Shown here one piece after another: positions 7,884 through 61,700 of a stretch of DNA of 64,000 nt. Position 1 is the stretch's first letter. Every line of letters starts with the position of its first letter. The stretch covers positions 62,001 to 126,000 of the forward strand of contig NZ_VCDI01000004.1 in the NCBI RefSeq assembly GCF_005844085.1. The letters run 5' to 3'. Below the pieces are notes generated by a model. That model was not told the origin of the DNA. It was given only the letters and a program-made list of their open reading frames with translations, and did not search any database. The position numbers were made by a program, and so were the translations under genes. The stretch is from Lichenicoccus roseus. GTDB lineage: Bacteria; Pseudomonadota; Alphaproteobacteria; Acetobacterales; Acetobacteraceae.

Positions 7884-9095
7884 ATGATCAACCGGGCATT
7901 CCTGAAGGCGGGTCACACTCCGACCCTGCTCAGCGCCTTCTTCTATTTCGACATGGCCTTCATGGTCTGGGCGCTGCTTGGCCCGCTCGGCGTGCAGCTC
8001 TCGCACCTGCTGCACCTGACCCCGAGCCAGAAGGGCCTGATGGTGGCGCTGCCGATCCTGTCCGGGGCGCTGCTGCGGGTAGTATTCGGCGTGCTGGTCG
8101 ACCGGCTGCATCCGCGCCTGACCGGCATCATCACCCAGTGCATCGTGCTCGCAACCCTGGTGGGCGTCTGGCTGATCGGCATCCATTCCTATGGCGAGAT
8201 GCTGATCCTGGGCCTGCTGCTCGGCGTCGCCGGCGCCTCGTTCGCGGTGGCACTGCCGCTGGCCTCGCGCTGGTATCCGCCCGAATACCAGGGGATCGTG
8301 CTCGGCATCGCCGGCGCCGGCAATTCCGGCACCGTGCTTGCCGCCTTGTTCGCACCGTTGCTGGCGGCGCATTTCGGCATCGGGACCGTCTTCATCATCG
8401 CCGCCATACCGGTGGCGATCGCCTTCGCGACCTATCTCGCTTTCGCCCGCAACGCCCCGTCGCAGCCACCGCCGAAGCAGCTCGGGGAATATGCCGCCGT
8501 GCTCGGCCATGGCGATGCCTGGTGGTTCATGCTGTTCTACGGCGTGACGTTTGGCGGCTTCTCGGGCCTCGCCTCGTCGCTCACCATCTATTTCAACGGC
8601 CAGTACGGCCTCTCCGCGATCACCGCCGGCTATTGCACCGCCGCCTGCGTCTTCGCCGGCTCGATGGTGCGGCCGGTCGGCGGCGCGCTGGCCGACCGCA
8701 TCGGCGGCATACGCGCGCTCAGCATCATGTACCTGGTCGCCGCGGCGGCGCTGATCATCGTATCGGTCGGGCTGCCGGTGTTCTGGATGGCGCTCGCCGT
8801 CTTCGTGGTGAGCATGCTGGCGTTCGGCATGGGCAACGGCGCGGTGTTCCAGCTGGTGCCGCAGCGCTTCCGTCGCGAGATCGGCGTGATGACCGGCCTG
8901 GTCGGCATGTGCGGCGGCGTCGGCGGGTTCTTCCTGGCCTCCTCGCTCGGCTTCGCGCGCCAGCATACCGGCTCGTATGGCGCCGGCTTCCTGATCTTCG
9001 CGGGGTTGGCGCTGGTCGCCCTGCTCGGCCTGACCAGCGTGAAGTCGCGCTGGCGCACGACCTGGGGTGCCAGCGCGGACGTCGCCCGGGTGTGA
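7884..9095 (+). CDS. narK: Nitrate/nitrite transporter (MFS, NarK/NasA type)
   Basis: A 403-residue inner-membrane transporter with about 12 hydrophobic helices. The N-terminus (FYFDMAFMVWALLGPLGVQL) and the two Gly-rich nitrate-signature helices (IAGAGNSGTVLAALFAP around residue 145, and MGNGAVFQLVPQRF with TGLVGMCGGVGGFFL around residues 315-350) identify the nitrate/nitrite porter branch of the major facilitator superfamily. It imports nitrate for the reductases encoded downstream. Its TGA overlaps the ATG of the nitrate reductase by one base, so translation is probably coupled. It starts 109 bases from the divergent kinase gene. Confidence 0.94.
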   Translation: MINRAFLKAGHTPTLLSAFFYFDMAFMVWALLGPLGVQLSHLLHLTPSQKGLMVALPILSGALLRVVFGVLVDRLHPRLTGIITQCIVLATLVGVWLIGIHSYGEMLILGLLLGVAGASFAVALPLASRWYPPEYQGIVLGIAGAGNSGTVLAALFAPLLAAHFGIGTVFIIAAIPVAIAFATYLAFARNAPSQPPPKQLGEYAAVLGHGDAWWFMLFYGVTFGGFSGLASSLTIYFNGQYGLSAITAGYCTAACVFAGSMVRPVGGALADRIGGIRALSIMYLVAAAALIIVSVGLPVFWMALAVFVVSMLAFGMGNGAVFQLVPQRFRREIGVMTGLVGMCGGVGGFFLASSLGFARQHTGSYGAGFLIFAGLALVALLGLTSVKSRWRTTWGASADVARV

Positions 9096-58078: not shown

Positions 58079-58592
58079 ATCCTCCCTCGCGGGAGCGACA
58101 CCATCCAGGGGCGACGCCGCGGTAGCCGGGGGCGCCGAGATCATCATCATCGACGCACGCTGGCGCCGGCTTGTGCCCGGAGCCGAGCGCATAGCCAGGC
58201 GTGCCGTCGCCGCGGCGGGCGGCGCGGGATCGGTGGTCCTCGACCGCGACCTGCGTGTGAAGCGCCTGAATGCGCGCCATCGCGGCCGCAACAAGCCGAC
58301 CAACGTGCTCACCTTCGAGACCCATGTCGACGCAGGCAGCGGCGACATCGTGCTGGCGCTGGAGACGGTGCGTCGCGAGGCGCAGTCACAGATCCGGCGG
58401 CCGGCGCATCACCTGGCGCATCTCATCGTGCATGGCGCGCTGCACCTGCGCGGCCATGACCATCACCTGGCCGGCGACGCGCGCCGCATGGAGATGCAGG
58501 AAGCCCGCATCCTGCACCGCCTGCGCGTCCCGAACCCCTGGAAGACGCGCCCCGCCGTCACCGCCTCCTCCGTATCGGCCGCACCGGGATGA
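58062..58592 (+). CDS. ybeY: rRNA maturation RNase YbeY
   Basis: A 176-residue metal-dependent endoribonuclease that matures the 16S rRNA 3' end. The zinc motif is [15 protein letters not shown], preceded by the substrate-loop [13 protein letters not shown] 58062 is used because CGGGAG lies upstream and the frame overlaps phoH by 17 bases. About 25 residues before the conserved start are Ser/Arg/Gly-rich, so a later start cannot be excluded. The stop overlaps the corC ATG by four bases. Confidence 0.93.
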
Positions 58593-59518
58593 GCCAGATG
58601 CCGGACGACGTTCCCGAACCGCAGGCGCCGTCGCCACGGCGCGGACTGATCTCGTTCTTCGGCCGCAGGCGTGTCGAGCAGGGGCGGCTGCGCTCCTCCA
58701 TCGCGGCCCTGGTGCAGGAGGCGGCCGAGGCGCCGCAATCCGGCGAGGAGCCGCCGGAGCTCGACCGACAGGAGCGCGCGCTGATCGCCAACGTGCTGCG
58801 CCTGCGCGGAATCACCGCCGACGACGTCATGGTGCCGCGCGCCGACATCGTGGCGATGGCGGCGGGCACCACCCTGGACGAGGCGCTGACCTTCCTGCGG
58901 CGCGAGAACCATTCCCGCCTGCCGGTCTATGGCGAGCAGCTCGACGACATCCTCGGCATGGTCCACATCAAGGACCTGCTGGCCTTTTCCGGCGATCCTG
59001 CCGGCTTCAGCCTGAAGTCGATCCTGCGCCAGCCGCTGATGATCGCGCCGCAGATGCCGGTGCTCGACCTGCTGCTGCAGATGCGACAGCGCCGCGTGCA
59101 TCTTGCTCTGGTGGTCGACGAATACGGCGGCATCGACGGCCTGCTCACCATCGAGGACCTGGTCGAGACCATCGTCGGCGACATCGCCGACGAGCACGAC
59201 GAGCCGGCGGTGGTCATGCTGGTCGAGCGCCAGGACGGCACCTTCGATGTCGATGCGCGCCTCGAGATCGAGGAGTTCGAGGCCCGGCTCGGGCCGGTGC
59301 TGACCGAGGACGAACGCGAGAGCGACATCGAGACGGTCGGCGGCCTGGTGTTCATGCTGGCGGGCCACGTGCCGACGCGGGGCGAGGTGCTGACACACGA
59401 GGGCGGTATCGAATTCCGGGTGCTCGACGCCGATGCCCGGCATATCCGTCGCGTGCGGGTGCGGCTGCCCGAGGCAGCCGCCCGCACCGCAGATGCGGCC
59501 AGCGCGGACCAGGCCTGA
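58589..59518 (+). CDS. corC: CBS/CorC_HlyC domain protein (hemolysin C / CorC family)
   Basis: A 309-residue cytosolic protein. The CBS pair spans about residues 75-190 ([51 protein letters not shown]). The CorC_HlyC transporter-associated domain follows ([36 protein letters not shown]). The DUF21 membrane domain of longer relatives is absent. E. coli CorC is tied to Mg/Co resistance, although the molecular role is debated. Its ATG overlaps the ybeY stop (ATGA). The usual next gene, lnt, is not present downstream. Confidence 0.92.
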
Positions 59519-59653
59519 GGCAATCGGGCGATCGCACAACGTTAACGGGCGAGACAAGCGCGGGTGCCGGGTCTAACATCCATTGGCGAAACGACTGGTG
59601 CGTTTCCCGCATCTGTCCGGACCGATGGCCGCACCCAGAGTCCCGAGGCTGCC

Positions 59654-61183
59654 ATGAGCCTTTTTACCCAACCGGGCCACGCCAGCGCCGCCGACCTGCT
59701 GCTGGATGACCCGCGCGTCGCCGGCGCGGTCAGCATCGAGAGCGCCACCACCACGGGCGGCGCCGGCCGGCGGCACAGCGTGCGCGTGCTGCCCGAGGCG
59801 CGCTGGCTCGAAGCACAGACCCGGCATGCGGCGGCTGCCGCCAGCCGGTCGTTGCTCGGGTGGCATAACACCTACGAGCTGGACCGGACCGTGGACGCCG
59901 GGATCATCCCGGACCGGCGAGTGCCCGACGGCGTCGAAGCCGTCACCGGCAGCCTGCTTGCCCTGCCGCATGAGCGGGTCCGCGAGACCGGCTGCGGCGA
60001 CGGGCTGCTGCTGCGCGAACTGGCGCCGCACTGCAGGTCCTATGCGGCATCCGATGTCTCCGCCGTCTCGCTGGCCCGGCTGCGGGCCTGGCTCGAGGCG
60101 CGGCCGTCACTCGATCACGTGCAGGTTCTACGGCAGGCGGCGCATGAGACCGGCGGGACCGGCAAGGCCTCGCTCGACCTCGTGGTGATCGACGCCAGCG
60201 CGCAGCCATTTCCGGATGTCGATTATCTGGTCCGCGTGCTCGATGCCAACTGGAGTCAGGTGGCGCCCGGTGGCCATCTGTTCCTGCGCAACGTGCGCCT
60301 GCTGGGCCTGCAGACCACCGGCATCGCGGCCGCCGCGCTGGCTTACGCGCCGGACGACATGACGGTGGCGGCGCTGCGGCAGTCGATCCACGCCGGCTGG
60401 CTGGCGCAGTCCGAGCTGGCGCTCGATCCGGCCTTGTTCCACCGGTATGCCGGCTCTCGCGGCGCCACGGTGAGCGTGCGGCTCAGGCGCGGATGGTCCG
60501 TCTCCGACCCGATGCGCACGAGCTTTGACGTGCTGCTCGGCAAGGCGGCCGCTGGGCAAGCCGGACCGCCGCCGCCCGCCCTGCTGGACACCGTCCCGGC
60601 GCTGCGGCGCTGGCTCGCCGGTCCGGACCAGGGCAGCGCCCTGCTGCGCGCGCAACCTGATGCCCGGCTGGCCGGCGATGTGGCCACCTACCGCCTGCTC
60701 AGCACGGCGGCCGACAGCATGCGAGCGGTCGAGGTGCGCCGGTTGGTCGCGCTGCGGATGACCGCCGGGTGGCCGGAATTTCACCCGCTGCCGCGCCCCG
60801 CCCTGCCCGAGGCGCGTGGCATCGATCCGGATGCGATCGCAGCGCTATGTGCGGCATCCGGCTGCGGTGCGGTGATACTCGCAACGCCGCATGCTCGCGA
60901 CGGCCGGTTCGACGTACTGGTCGAGCGCGCTGGTTCCGCCGGGCCGCCGCGGGGAATGCAGCCTGGTCTGGCGGACGGTCCGCTCGACGACCCGGCGATG
61001 GCGAACCATCCGCTGCTGCTGCAGTCACTGCGCAAGCTGTCGCAGTCGCTGCATAACGAACTCGCCCGCCTGCTGCCGGAAGCCGACATGCCGGCACGGA
61101 TCCTGCCGGTGACCCGGCGCGACCAGCTCGTCCTCGGGGCGCCGGACTACGACGGCAGCTGGACGCTGACGGGCCGGCTTTAA
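59654..61183 (+). CDS. NRPS-type SAM methyltransferase-like protein, stand-alone
   Basis: A 509-residue protein from ATG 59654 (the frame is open back to 59564). It has the pattern of the methyltransferase domain found inside nonribosomal peptide synthetases: WHNTYELDRTVD, the SAM-binding RETGCGDGLLLRELAPHC, ASDVSAVSLARLRAWL, then VIDASAQPFPDVDYLVRVLD and PGGHLFLRNVRLLGLQTT. No adenylation, condensation or carrier domain is attached. The last ~170 residues resemble the segment following such methyltransferases only loosely (RRGWSVSDPMRTSFDVLLG, then RFDVLVERAG). Substrate unknown. It lies where lnt would be expected. Confidence 0.68.
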   Translation: MSLFTQPGHASAADLLLDDPRVAGAVSIESATTTGGAGRRHSVRVLPEARWLEAQTRHAAAAASRSLLGWHNTYELDRTVDAGIIPDRRVPDGVEAVTGSLLALPHERVRETGCGDGLLLRELAPHCRSYAASDVSAVSLARLRAWLEARPSLDHVQVLRQAAHETGGTGKASLDLVVIDASAQPFPDVDYLVRVLDANWSQVAPGGHLFLRNVRLLGLQTTGIAAAALAYAPDDMTVAALRQSIHAGWLAQSELALDPALFHRYAGSRGATVSVRLRRGWSVSDPMRTSFDVLLGKAAAGQAGPPPPALLDTVPALRRWLAGPDQGSALLRAQPDARLAGDVATYRLLSTAADSMRAVEVRRLVALRMTAGWPEFHPLPRPALPEARGIDPDAIAALCAASGCGAVILATPHARDGRFDVLVERAGSAGPPRGMQPGLADGPLDDPAMANHPLLLQSLRKLSQSLHNELARLLPEADMPARILPVTRRDQLVLGAPDYDGSWTLTGRL

Positions 61184-61217: not shown

Positions 61218-61700
61218 ATGGCGGACGTGGTACCCCTCGCAGCGGTCCAGCAGCCGGCGGCGGCAACGCATGCCGGAGCTTCCACGTCTGGCCACGGCGG
61301 GCTGTTCCACGAAATCCTGTCCGACCTCAACCCGCTGCAGTACATCCCTGTAGTCGGCACGCTGTACCGCGCCATCACCGGGGACGAGGGCAACAGCACG
61401 CTGCGCAACATCGTGGCCCTCGGAACCAGTTTCGCGCTGGGTGGTCCGGTCGGCGTCGCCGTCACGGCGGTGGAGGAGGCAACCGGCATCGATCCCGCCC
61501 GCATGGCGCTCACCGCCGCGCTGCACCTGTTCCATGCCGGTCACGGCGACACCGGCGCCAAACCCGCCAGCGGTCCGTCCGGACCGGACGACGGCACCGC
61601 GCTGCTGGCGCAGGTACAGCCGTTTCCGCAACTGCCCGCCGGACAGACCTACGACGCGGAGACGCTGAACATGATGGAGCTGCAGCGGCTGCGCGGGTGA
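61218..61700 (+). CDS. Hypothetical protein, unknown function
   Basis: A 160-residue protein 34 bases after the methyltransferase-like gene and probably co-transcribed with it. The central part is the best ordered: HEILSDLNPLQYIPVVGTLYRAITGD, then TLRNIVALGTSFALGGPVGVAV and ATGIDPARMALTAALHLFHAG. The Gly/Ala-rich hydrophobic stretch around residues 65-80 is short for a membrane helix. The N- and C-terminal parts are Ala/Pro/Gly-rich and low in complexity. No signal peptide or catalytic motif is evident and I recognise no family. Confidence 0.6.
   Translation: MADVVPLAAVQQPAAATHAGASTSGHGGLFHEILSDLNPLQYIPVVGTLYRAITGDEGNSTLRNIVALGTSFALGGPVGVAVTAVEEATGIDPARMALTAALHLFHAGHGDTGAKPASGPSGPDDGTALLAQVQPFPQLPAGQTYDAETLNMMELQRLRG

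Follow-up and report, generated by a model that had tools for sequence, protein, structure and literature searches.

The window, that is the whole 64,000-nucleotide stretch of DNA analysed, contains a stand-alone methyltransferase gene whose ATG lies 135 bases (59519-59653) beyond the stop codon of corC. The features of this locus are as follows.

58589..59518, + strand: corC, given for context and outside the feature under study
59654..61183, + strand: stand-alone methyltransferase gene, ATG start, 509 amino acids (product P0001); from profile and model, the whole gene reads as a headless interrupted adenylation subdomain with its embedded methyltransferase
59678..59845, + strand: putative N-terminal remnant of the adenylation C-subdomain, approximately residues 9-64, assigned by fold only
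59846..60553, + strand: methyltransferase domain, approximately residues 65-300, with a shortened lid
59984..60004, + strand: SAM-binding motif I, E111-x-G-x-G-x-G117, retained
60191..60214, + strand: motif DASAQPFP, residues 180-187, changed (NSVVQYFP in both Acidiphilium proteins)
60287..60298, + strand: motif RNVR, residues 212-215, changed (GDVR in both Acidiphilium proteins)
60554..61183, + strand: C-terminal region, comprising the NRPS segment located after the methyltransferase and the last part of the adenylation subdomain
61218..61700, + strand: 160 amino acid open reading frame 34 bases 3' of the gene, given for context; its link to P0001 is a candidate one

An earlier reading of this DNA, made from the sequence alone, described a free-standing gene 135 bases past corC, and both the spacing and the 509 amino acid frame are borne out. 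A GTG at 59564 is a possible earlier start, which would give a product of 539 amino acids. GC content at codon positions 1, 2 and 3 is 0.776, 0.548 and 0.855, a coding-type pattern that resembles that of the neighbouring genes. When the bases of the stretch were shuffled 500 times, an open frame of at least 509 was never obtained, the longest being 471. A promoter and terminator scan of the region identified no terminator-like site and a single promoter-like site, which is on the opposite strand within the gene. The 160 amino acid frame at 61218-61700 was considered as a conserved partner of P0001 and set aside, having no convincing family match (best 12.1 bits against a cut-off of 370) and no match in the plasmid collection.

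The Pfam matches of P0001 are to generic methyltransferase families and are weak, with Methyltransf_11 at 26.3 bits (cut-off 21.2) and Methyltransf_25 at 27.7 bits (cut-off 27). In a sequence comparison with solved structures, P0001 is most similar to the NRPS enzyme TioS (5wmm), whose adenylation domain is interrupted by a methyltransferase, with an E value of 7.5e-23; that of the runner-up is 0.0047. A profile made from 57 embedded NRPS segments, each spanning motif a8, the methyltransferase and motif a10, replaced an earlier one made from just 2 sequences. It matches P0001 over residues 60-486 with 211 bits, and matches two free-standing proteins from Acidiphilium with 333 and 318 bits. The sequence-only reading had called the domain NRPS-type and had named ordinary class I methyltransferases as the best homologues that would speak against this; instead, 5wmm leads in both sequence and fold.

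The predicted structure of P0001 has a pLDDT of 80.7, falling below 50 at residues 65-89, and its N-terminal 60 or so residues form two strands and two helices. The structure prediction proposed in the sequence-only reading, here of the whole protein including its C-terminal part, places model residues 2-503 on residues 415-902 of 5wmm (Z 32.7, rmsd 4.5, 444 aligned residues), the model having been built on an alignment that already contained NRPS segments. The next structure, at Z 15.3, aligns with the methyltransferase part only. For the Acidiphilium protein, the model (pLDDT 87.5) aligns with residues 422-901 of 5wmm over 447 residues with Z 41.3, followed by 21.1. These Z values come from re-alignments of Foldseek hits, and the absence of a structure from the lists carries no meaning.

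Taken alone, the tail scores 57.5 bits against the profile in P0001 and 55.9 and 47.3 bits in the Acidiphilium proteins, compared with a maximum of 8.3 for shuffled controls (1200 made, 1136 reported). Tail sequence and model thus agree that, in P0001, the remainder of the adenylation C-subdomain comes after the methyltransferase. The a8 part ahead of the methyltransferase is present in the model. The score of the head (residues 1-62) against the a8 region does not exceed that of shuffled sequences; homology of the head by sequence was accordingly dropped, and its assignment is kept on structural grounds. The model suggests that the first 60 or so residues belong to the adenylation subdomain. 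No AMP-binding match to an adenylation core was found in P0001 or within the window; the gene begins at the subdomain, with corC upstream. The lysine of motif a10 (NGK) is catalytic in adenylation domains. This motif is lost in all three free-standing proteins, being replaced by RDQ (489-491) in P0001 and by AAR and ASR in Acidiphilium. The most fitting description of P0001 is therefore an interrupted adenylation domain reduced to its C-terminal subdomain and methyltransferase, without the core. The methyltransferase had been described as standing alone, which is true of the gene, but the probable adenylation-subdomain flanks suggested by the profile, tail score and model had been overlooked.

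A search of 397 genomes of the family identified six with a match at an E value of 1e-7 or better: the window genome, two with free-standing proteins of about 500 amino acids, and three with frames of 1064 to 2587 amino acids. Of 385 genomes of the class, 12 have a match at 1e-10 or better, these being the window genome and 11 with frames of more than 1100 amino acids. Three candidates were scored per genome in both searches, and members may be missed. The free-standing relatives are from Acidiphilium sp. PA and A. rubrum ATCC 35905; they are the only full-length ones besides P0001 among the family genomes at three scored candidates each, and the gene is present in 2 of 13 Acidiphilium genomes. 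The genus of the window organism is represented by one genome. A further short generic match in A. rubrum (residues 105-214, in a 263 amino acid frame, E 8e-8) was not counted as a family member. When P0001 alone was used to scan the species collection, no relative was confirmed. An alignment scan of the same collection using patterns around QYFPD found 142 relatives, and among the best 80 of these 142 (79 loci) the sole full-length free-standing members are again the two Acidiphilium genes. In the plasmid collection 87 records match P0002, none across more than 80% of its length.

P0001 and the two Acidiphilium proteins form one clade with support of 100/99 in a tree of 71 rows, made up of the 57 embedded segments, the three stand-alone proteins and 11 hand-named frames, two of which (L036 and L037) have very long branches. 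The three proteins have a common origin. The P0001 branch is 0.97 long, and P0001 is identical to the Acidiphilium proteins at 147 of the 349 sites where those two agree. This small related group, with its informative Acidiphilium gene neighbourhood, had escaped the sequence-only reading. Free-standing methyltransferases of the same kind, 386-400 amino acids long and with NSVVQYFP intact, are also seen in two Acidobacteria MAGs (L073:8013-9215 and L075:7983-9143), a few genes away from a frame that by eye resembles an A domain. Given their different tree position, these are possibly a second escape from an NRPS.

In Acidiphilium sp. PA, the methyltransferase gene (L025 9084-10559) overlaps by four bases an upstream gene (8098-9087) whose product, P0004, matches the amino acid--[acyl-carrier-protein] ligase 4h2w over residues 45-321 with an E value of 4.7e-71. 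A carrier gene of 83 amino acids (82 in A. rubrum), with a partial PP-binding match of 24 bits against a cut-off of 20.8, begins 22 bases past the methyltransferase and is followed by a gene for a 385 amino acid protein without a Pfam match. On the other side of the cassette are a 153 amino acid open reading frame and then a 1007 amino acid protein with two glycosyltransferase regions. Adjacent ligase and carrier genes are present in both Acidiphilium genomes (L024 in A. rubrum, L025 in Acidiphilium sp. PA). When five candidates per genome were scored, the ligase was found at 1e-20 in 22 of the 397 family genomes, and it is paired with the free-standing methyltransferase in the two Acidiphilium genomes only. 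The association of ligase, methyltransferase and carrier is seen in two related species. In another genome (G337), a ligase and a methyltransferase frame of NRPS size are on different contigs.

Ligases of this kind (Bll0957 type; 4h2w, 3mey) have been reported, in a note added in proof, to neighbour carrier, redox enzyme and liposaccharide genes, with the prediction that a modified amino acid is passed on to a surface sugar (PMC2922099). The Acidiphilium relatives of P0001 belong to a cassette of this type, with glycosyltransferase genes close by. In the neighbourhoods described there the redox enzyme is the modifier (PMC2922099), whereas in Acidiphilium the position of a modifier is taken by the NRPS-type methyltransferase. 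The cassette probably N-methylates a carrier-bound amino acid: the ligase would activate the amino acid and load it onto the carrier, and the clamped methyltransferase would then N-methylate it. A description of this ligase paired with an NRPS-type methyltransferase was not found in searches of the open-licence literature.

The window genome differs from these systems, as no match to an amino acid:carrier-protein ligase was found in it, nor a PP-binding carrier match near the P0001 gene. SAM motif I is present in P0001 (E-x-G-x-G-x-G, residues 111-117), but its acceptor pocket is altered. Nine residues of TioS have been singled out in the literature, including those of the substrate pocket, W526, M540, W543, S632, Q635, D664 and R666 (PMC6670151). 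In TioS numbering, P0001 keeps Q635 and R666 of the nine and has S632A, D664N, proline for L738, and also M540V and W543G, two less sure assignments because confidence in both model and alignment is lowest at these positions. W526 is retained in the large alignments but missing from three alignments of four sequences, and G525 is likewise alignment-dependent. The Acidiphilium proteins keep seven of the nine (W526, M540, W543, S632, Q635, D664 and R666), a set that is incomplete in P0001. They have methionine for L738, as do 11 of the 57 embedded rows, and serine for G525.

To assess the conservation of these sites, 23 embedded rows were collected through their similarity to P0001, with no use of motif patterns. 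All 23 have S632; N631 and G663 are found in 22 each, M540 in 21, D664 and R666 in 19 each, Q635 in 18 and W543 in 16. P0001 is changed at S632, N631 and G663, all nearly invariant. Other differences occur among the embedded rows themselves (D664N in 3, E292D in 4, Y298F in 6 and a residue other than tryptophan at 543 in 7), so some of the changes in P0001 may be tolerated. The 57 segments were chosen from 118 frames by their a8, QF-type and a10 motifs, so that conservation there is partly built into every count that uses these segments; of 76 conserved sites, P0001 keeps 40, each Acidiphilium protein 57 and the embedded rows 65-76. A narrower set, the 39 sites at which both Acidiphilium proteins and 95% or more of the embedded rows are conserved, was divided into regions drawn by the analyst, with small numbers in each. 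In the SAM half P0001 retains 7 of the 8 sites, in the tail all 6, in the acceptor half 13 of the 20, and in the lid 2 of the 5, both of these being tryptophans of uncertain alignment. This unevenness, with the SAM half and tail kept, looks more like a changed acceptor site than like even decay.

No condensation or AMP-binding domains were found in the window, in agreement with the earlier statement that it holds no NRPS module; the matches in the genome are on other contigs or outside C21:62001-126000. The proposed search for NRPS genes lacking a methyltransferase did find one such line, a hybrid NRPS/PKS line on contig C2 (C2:74237-88107, L177), which is the sole line found in the genome by a condensation-domain search. 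It begins with a loading A-T protein, followed by KS-AT-T-aminotransferase-C-A-T and then C-A-T-TE; genes for a cupin-like protein and a 4'-phosphopantetheinyl transferase are close by. None of its three proteins has a methyltransferase domain at 1e-5.

The P0001 gene would be an escaped piece of an NRPS, an adenylation C-subdomain with an inserted N-methyltransferase, from which the core has gone. The common ancestor of P0001 and its few Acetobacteraceae relatives probably acted on aminoacyl thioesters of a free carrier protein, N-methylating an amino acid that a class II aaRS-like amino acid:carrier-protein ligase had loaded, and this still appears to be the case in Acidiphilium. The subdomain remnant could then be a clamp that holds both ends of the methyltransferase together. 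In the bassianolide system, a methyltransferase construct that retained a small part of its A domain handled Phe- and Leu-SNAC as the complete synthetase does, which the bare methyltransferase domain failed to do (PMC6670151). The architecture of P0001 is similar to this construct, so a clamp is the best reading of the remnant. In the window copy, the ancestral aminoacyl N-methylation has probably been lost, judging from the residue changes, and the methyltransferase would have been redirected. It is on balance probable that P0001 is a folded, SAM-binding protein that has moved past the ancestral reaction, most likely as a methyltransferase with another acceptor.

A somewhat unlikely alternative, though one to be taken seriously, is that P0001 is a relic in decay which has lost its partners and activity and makes no useful product, its frame being open by chance or because the loss is recent. 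The loss of ancestral pocket and lid residues, the lack of a ligase match, the retention of only 40 of the 76 conserved sites, the long branch and the occurrence of the gene in one genome of its genus would all fit with this. Against it are the 509 open codons with coding-type base use, the uneven losses that spare the SAM half and the tail, and the identity to Acidiphilium at 147 of 349 agreed sites. A changed acceptor is tentatively favoured over decay. That P0001 is still the ancestral enzyme, with its aminoacyl-carrier loaded by some other activating enzyme such as an AMP-binding protein on C6 or C20, is improbable. These contigs have carriers in frames of 94 and 98 amino acids at a distance of up to about 5 kb from AMP-binding matches, and the SAM motif is retained, but S632, N631 and G663 are changed, the lid is shortened, and nothing links P0001 to either locus.

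The sequence-only reading had proposed methylation of a small metabolite, which may be the case, or action in trans on a distant assembly line. The genome does have such a line, on C2, whose three proteins gave no methyltransferase match at 1e-5. However, this line is on a different contig with no connection seen, and the residues proposed to hold the carrier-bound amino acid are partly lost from P0001. A free methyltransferase co-expressed with a synthetase devoid of its own is also reported to have left methylation unrestored (PMC6670151). Action of P0001 on the C2 line is quite improbable. It is hardly conceivable that P0001 has no relationship to NRPS enzymes and is an ordinary class I methyltransferase. 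The Pfam matches are indeed to generic families, but 5wmm is far ahead of all other structures in sequence and fold, and the tail is homologous to the segment after the methyltransferase in NRPSs; with the 211-bit profile score, these led to its rejection.

With P0001 read as an escaped methyltransferase that has changed its acceptor, its closest known counterpart is TioS A4aM4A4b (5wmm), which has the same order of subdomain, methyltransferase and subdomain, the same fold over the 444 aligned residues, and the SAM motif. P0001 differs in being free-standing, in lacking the adenylation core and a10 lysine motif, and in its altered acceptor pocket and lid. The laboratory construct aMT-BSLS also keeps the methyltransferase with a small portion of bassianolide synthetase A2, cut from the remainder (PMC6670151). 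In P0001 the arrangement belongs to a natural gene, and the a10 motif is gone. The class I fold is shared more widely. MtfA (3g2p) and CcbJ (4hgz), which are presumably free-standing natural-product N-methyltransferases, give weaker fold matches (Z 14.4 and 15.0) that cover the methyltransferase part only, with no adenylation remnant in the aligned range. The domains are known ones, in an arrangement that was not found described as a natural gene in the open-licence literature.

This suggests that an embedded NRPS methyltransferase can depart from its parent enzyme together with the adenylation subdomain, retained as a clamp, and go on to serve as an independent gene, in a natural escape that resembles the laboratory construct. 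In Acidiphilium, an aaRS-like carrier ligase would be teamed with an NRPS-type methyltransferase, and the purpose of the amino acid loading by such ligases becomes directly testable with three small proteins. It is possible, and is put forward tentatively, that the cassette represents a minimal module in which a headless interrupted adenylation domain has had its core swapped for a free aaRS-derived ligase. The amino acid would be activated by the chemistry of tRNA synthetases, held on a free carrier and N-methylated by an NRPS fragment in the clamp of a dead adenylation subdomain, perhaps so as to decorate a cell-surface sugar. The surface-sugar role is suggested because the cassette adjoins a glycosyltransferase gene. 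P0001 would then be a second step, having kept the clamp and SAM site for an acceptor that is no longer carrier-bound.

The methyltransferase gene had been said to stand in place of lnt. It is true that lnt is absent from this spot, but a full-length lnt match is found elsewhere in the genome (C20:89284-90447). The proposed comparison of the region downstream of corC, covering flanks of about 1.5 kb, found lnt in 4 of 16 relatives from the family, each represented by its best corC locus, and in 9 of 12 more distant relatives from the class. The other 12 family relatives have other open frames there. The loss of lnt from beside corC is therefore wider than the P0001 gene and probably separate from it, and displacement of lnt by the P0001 gene is unsupported. 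The frames 3' of corC (from 59519 onward in the window; L128-L143) vary widely among the 16 family relatives, with lnt in four, the start of an SMC-like frame, judged by eye, in two, and various frames in the remainder, as if the region downstream of corC were a site of frequent rearrangement.
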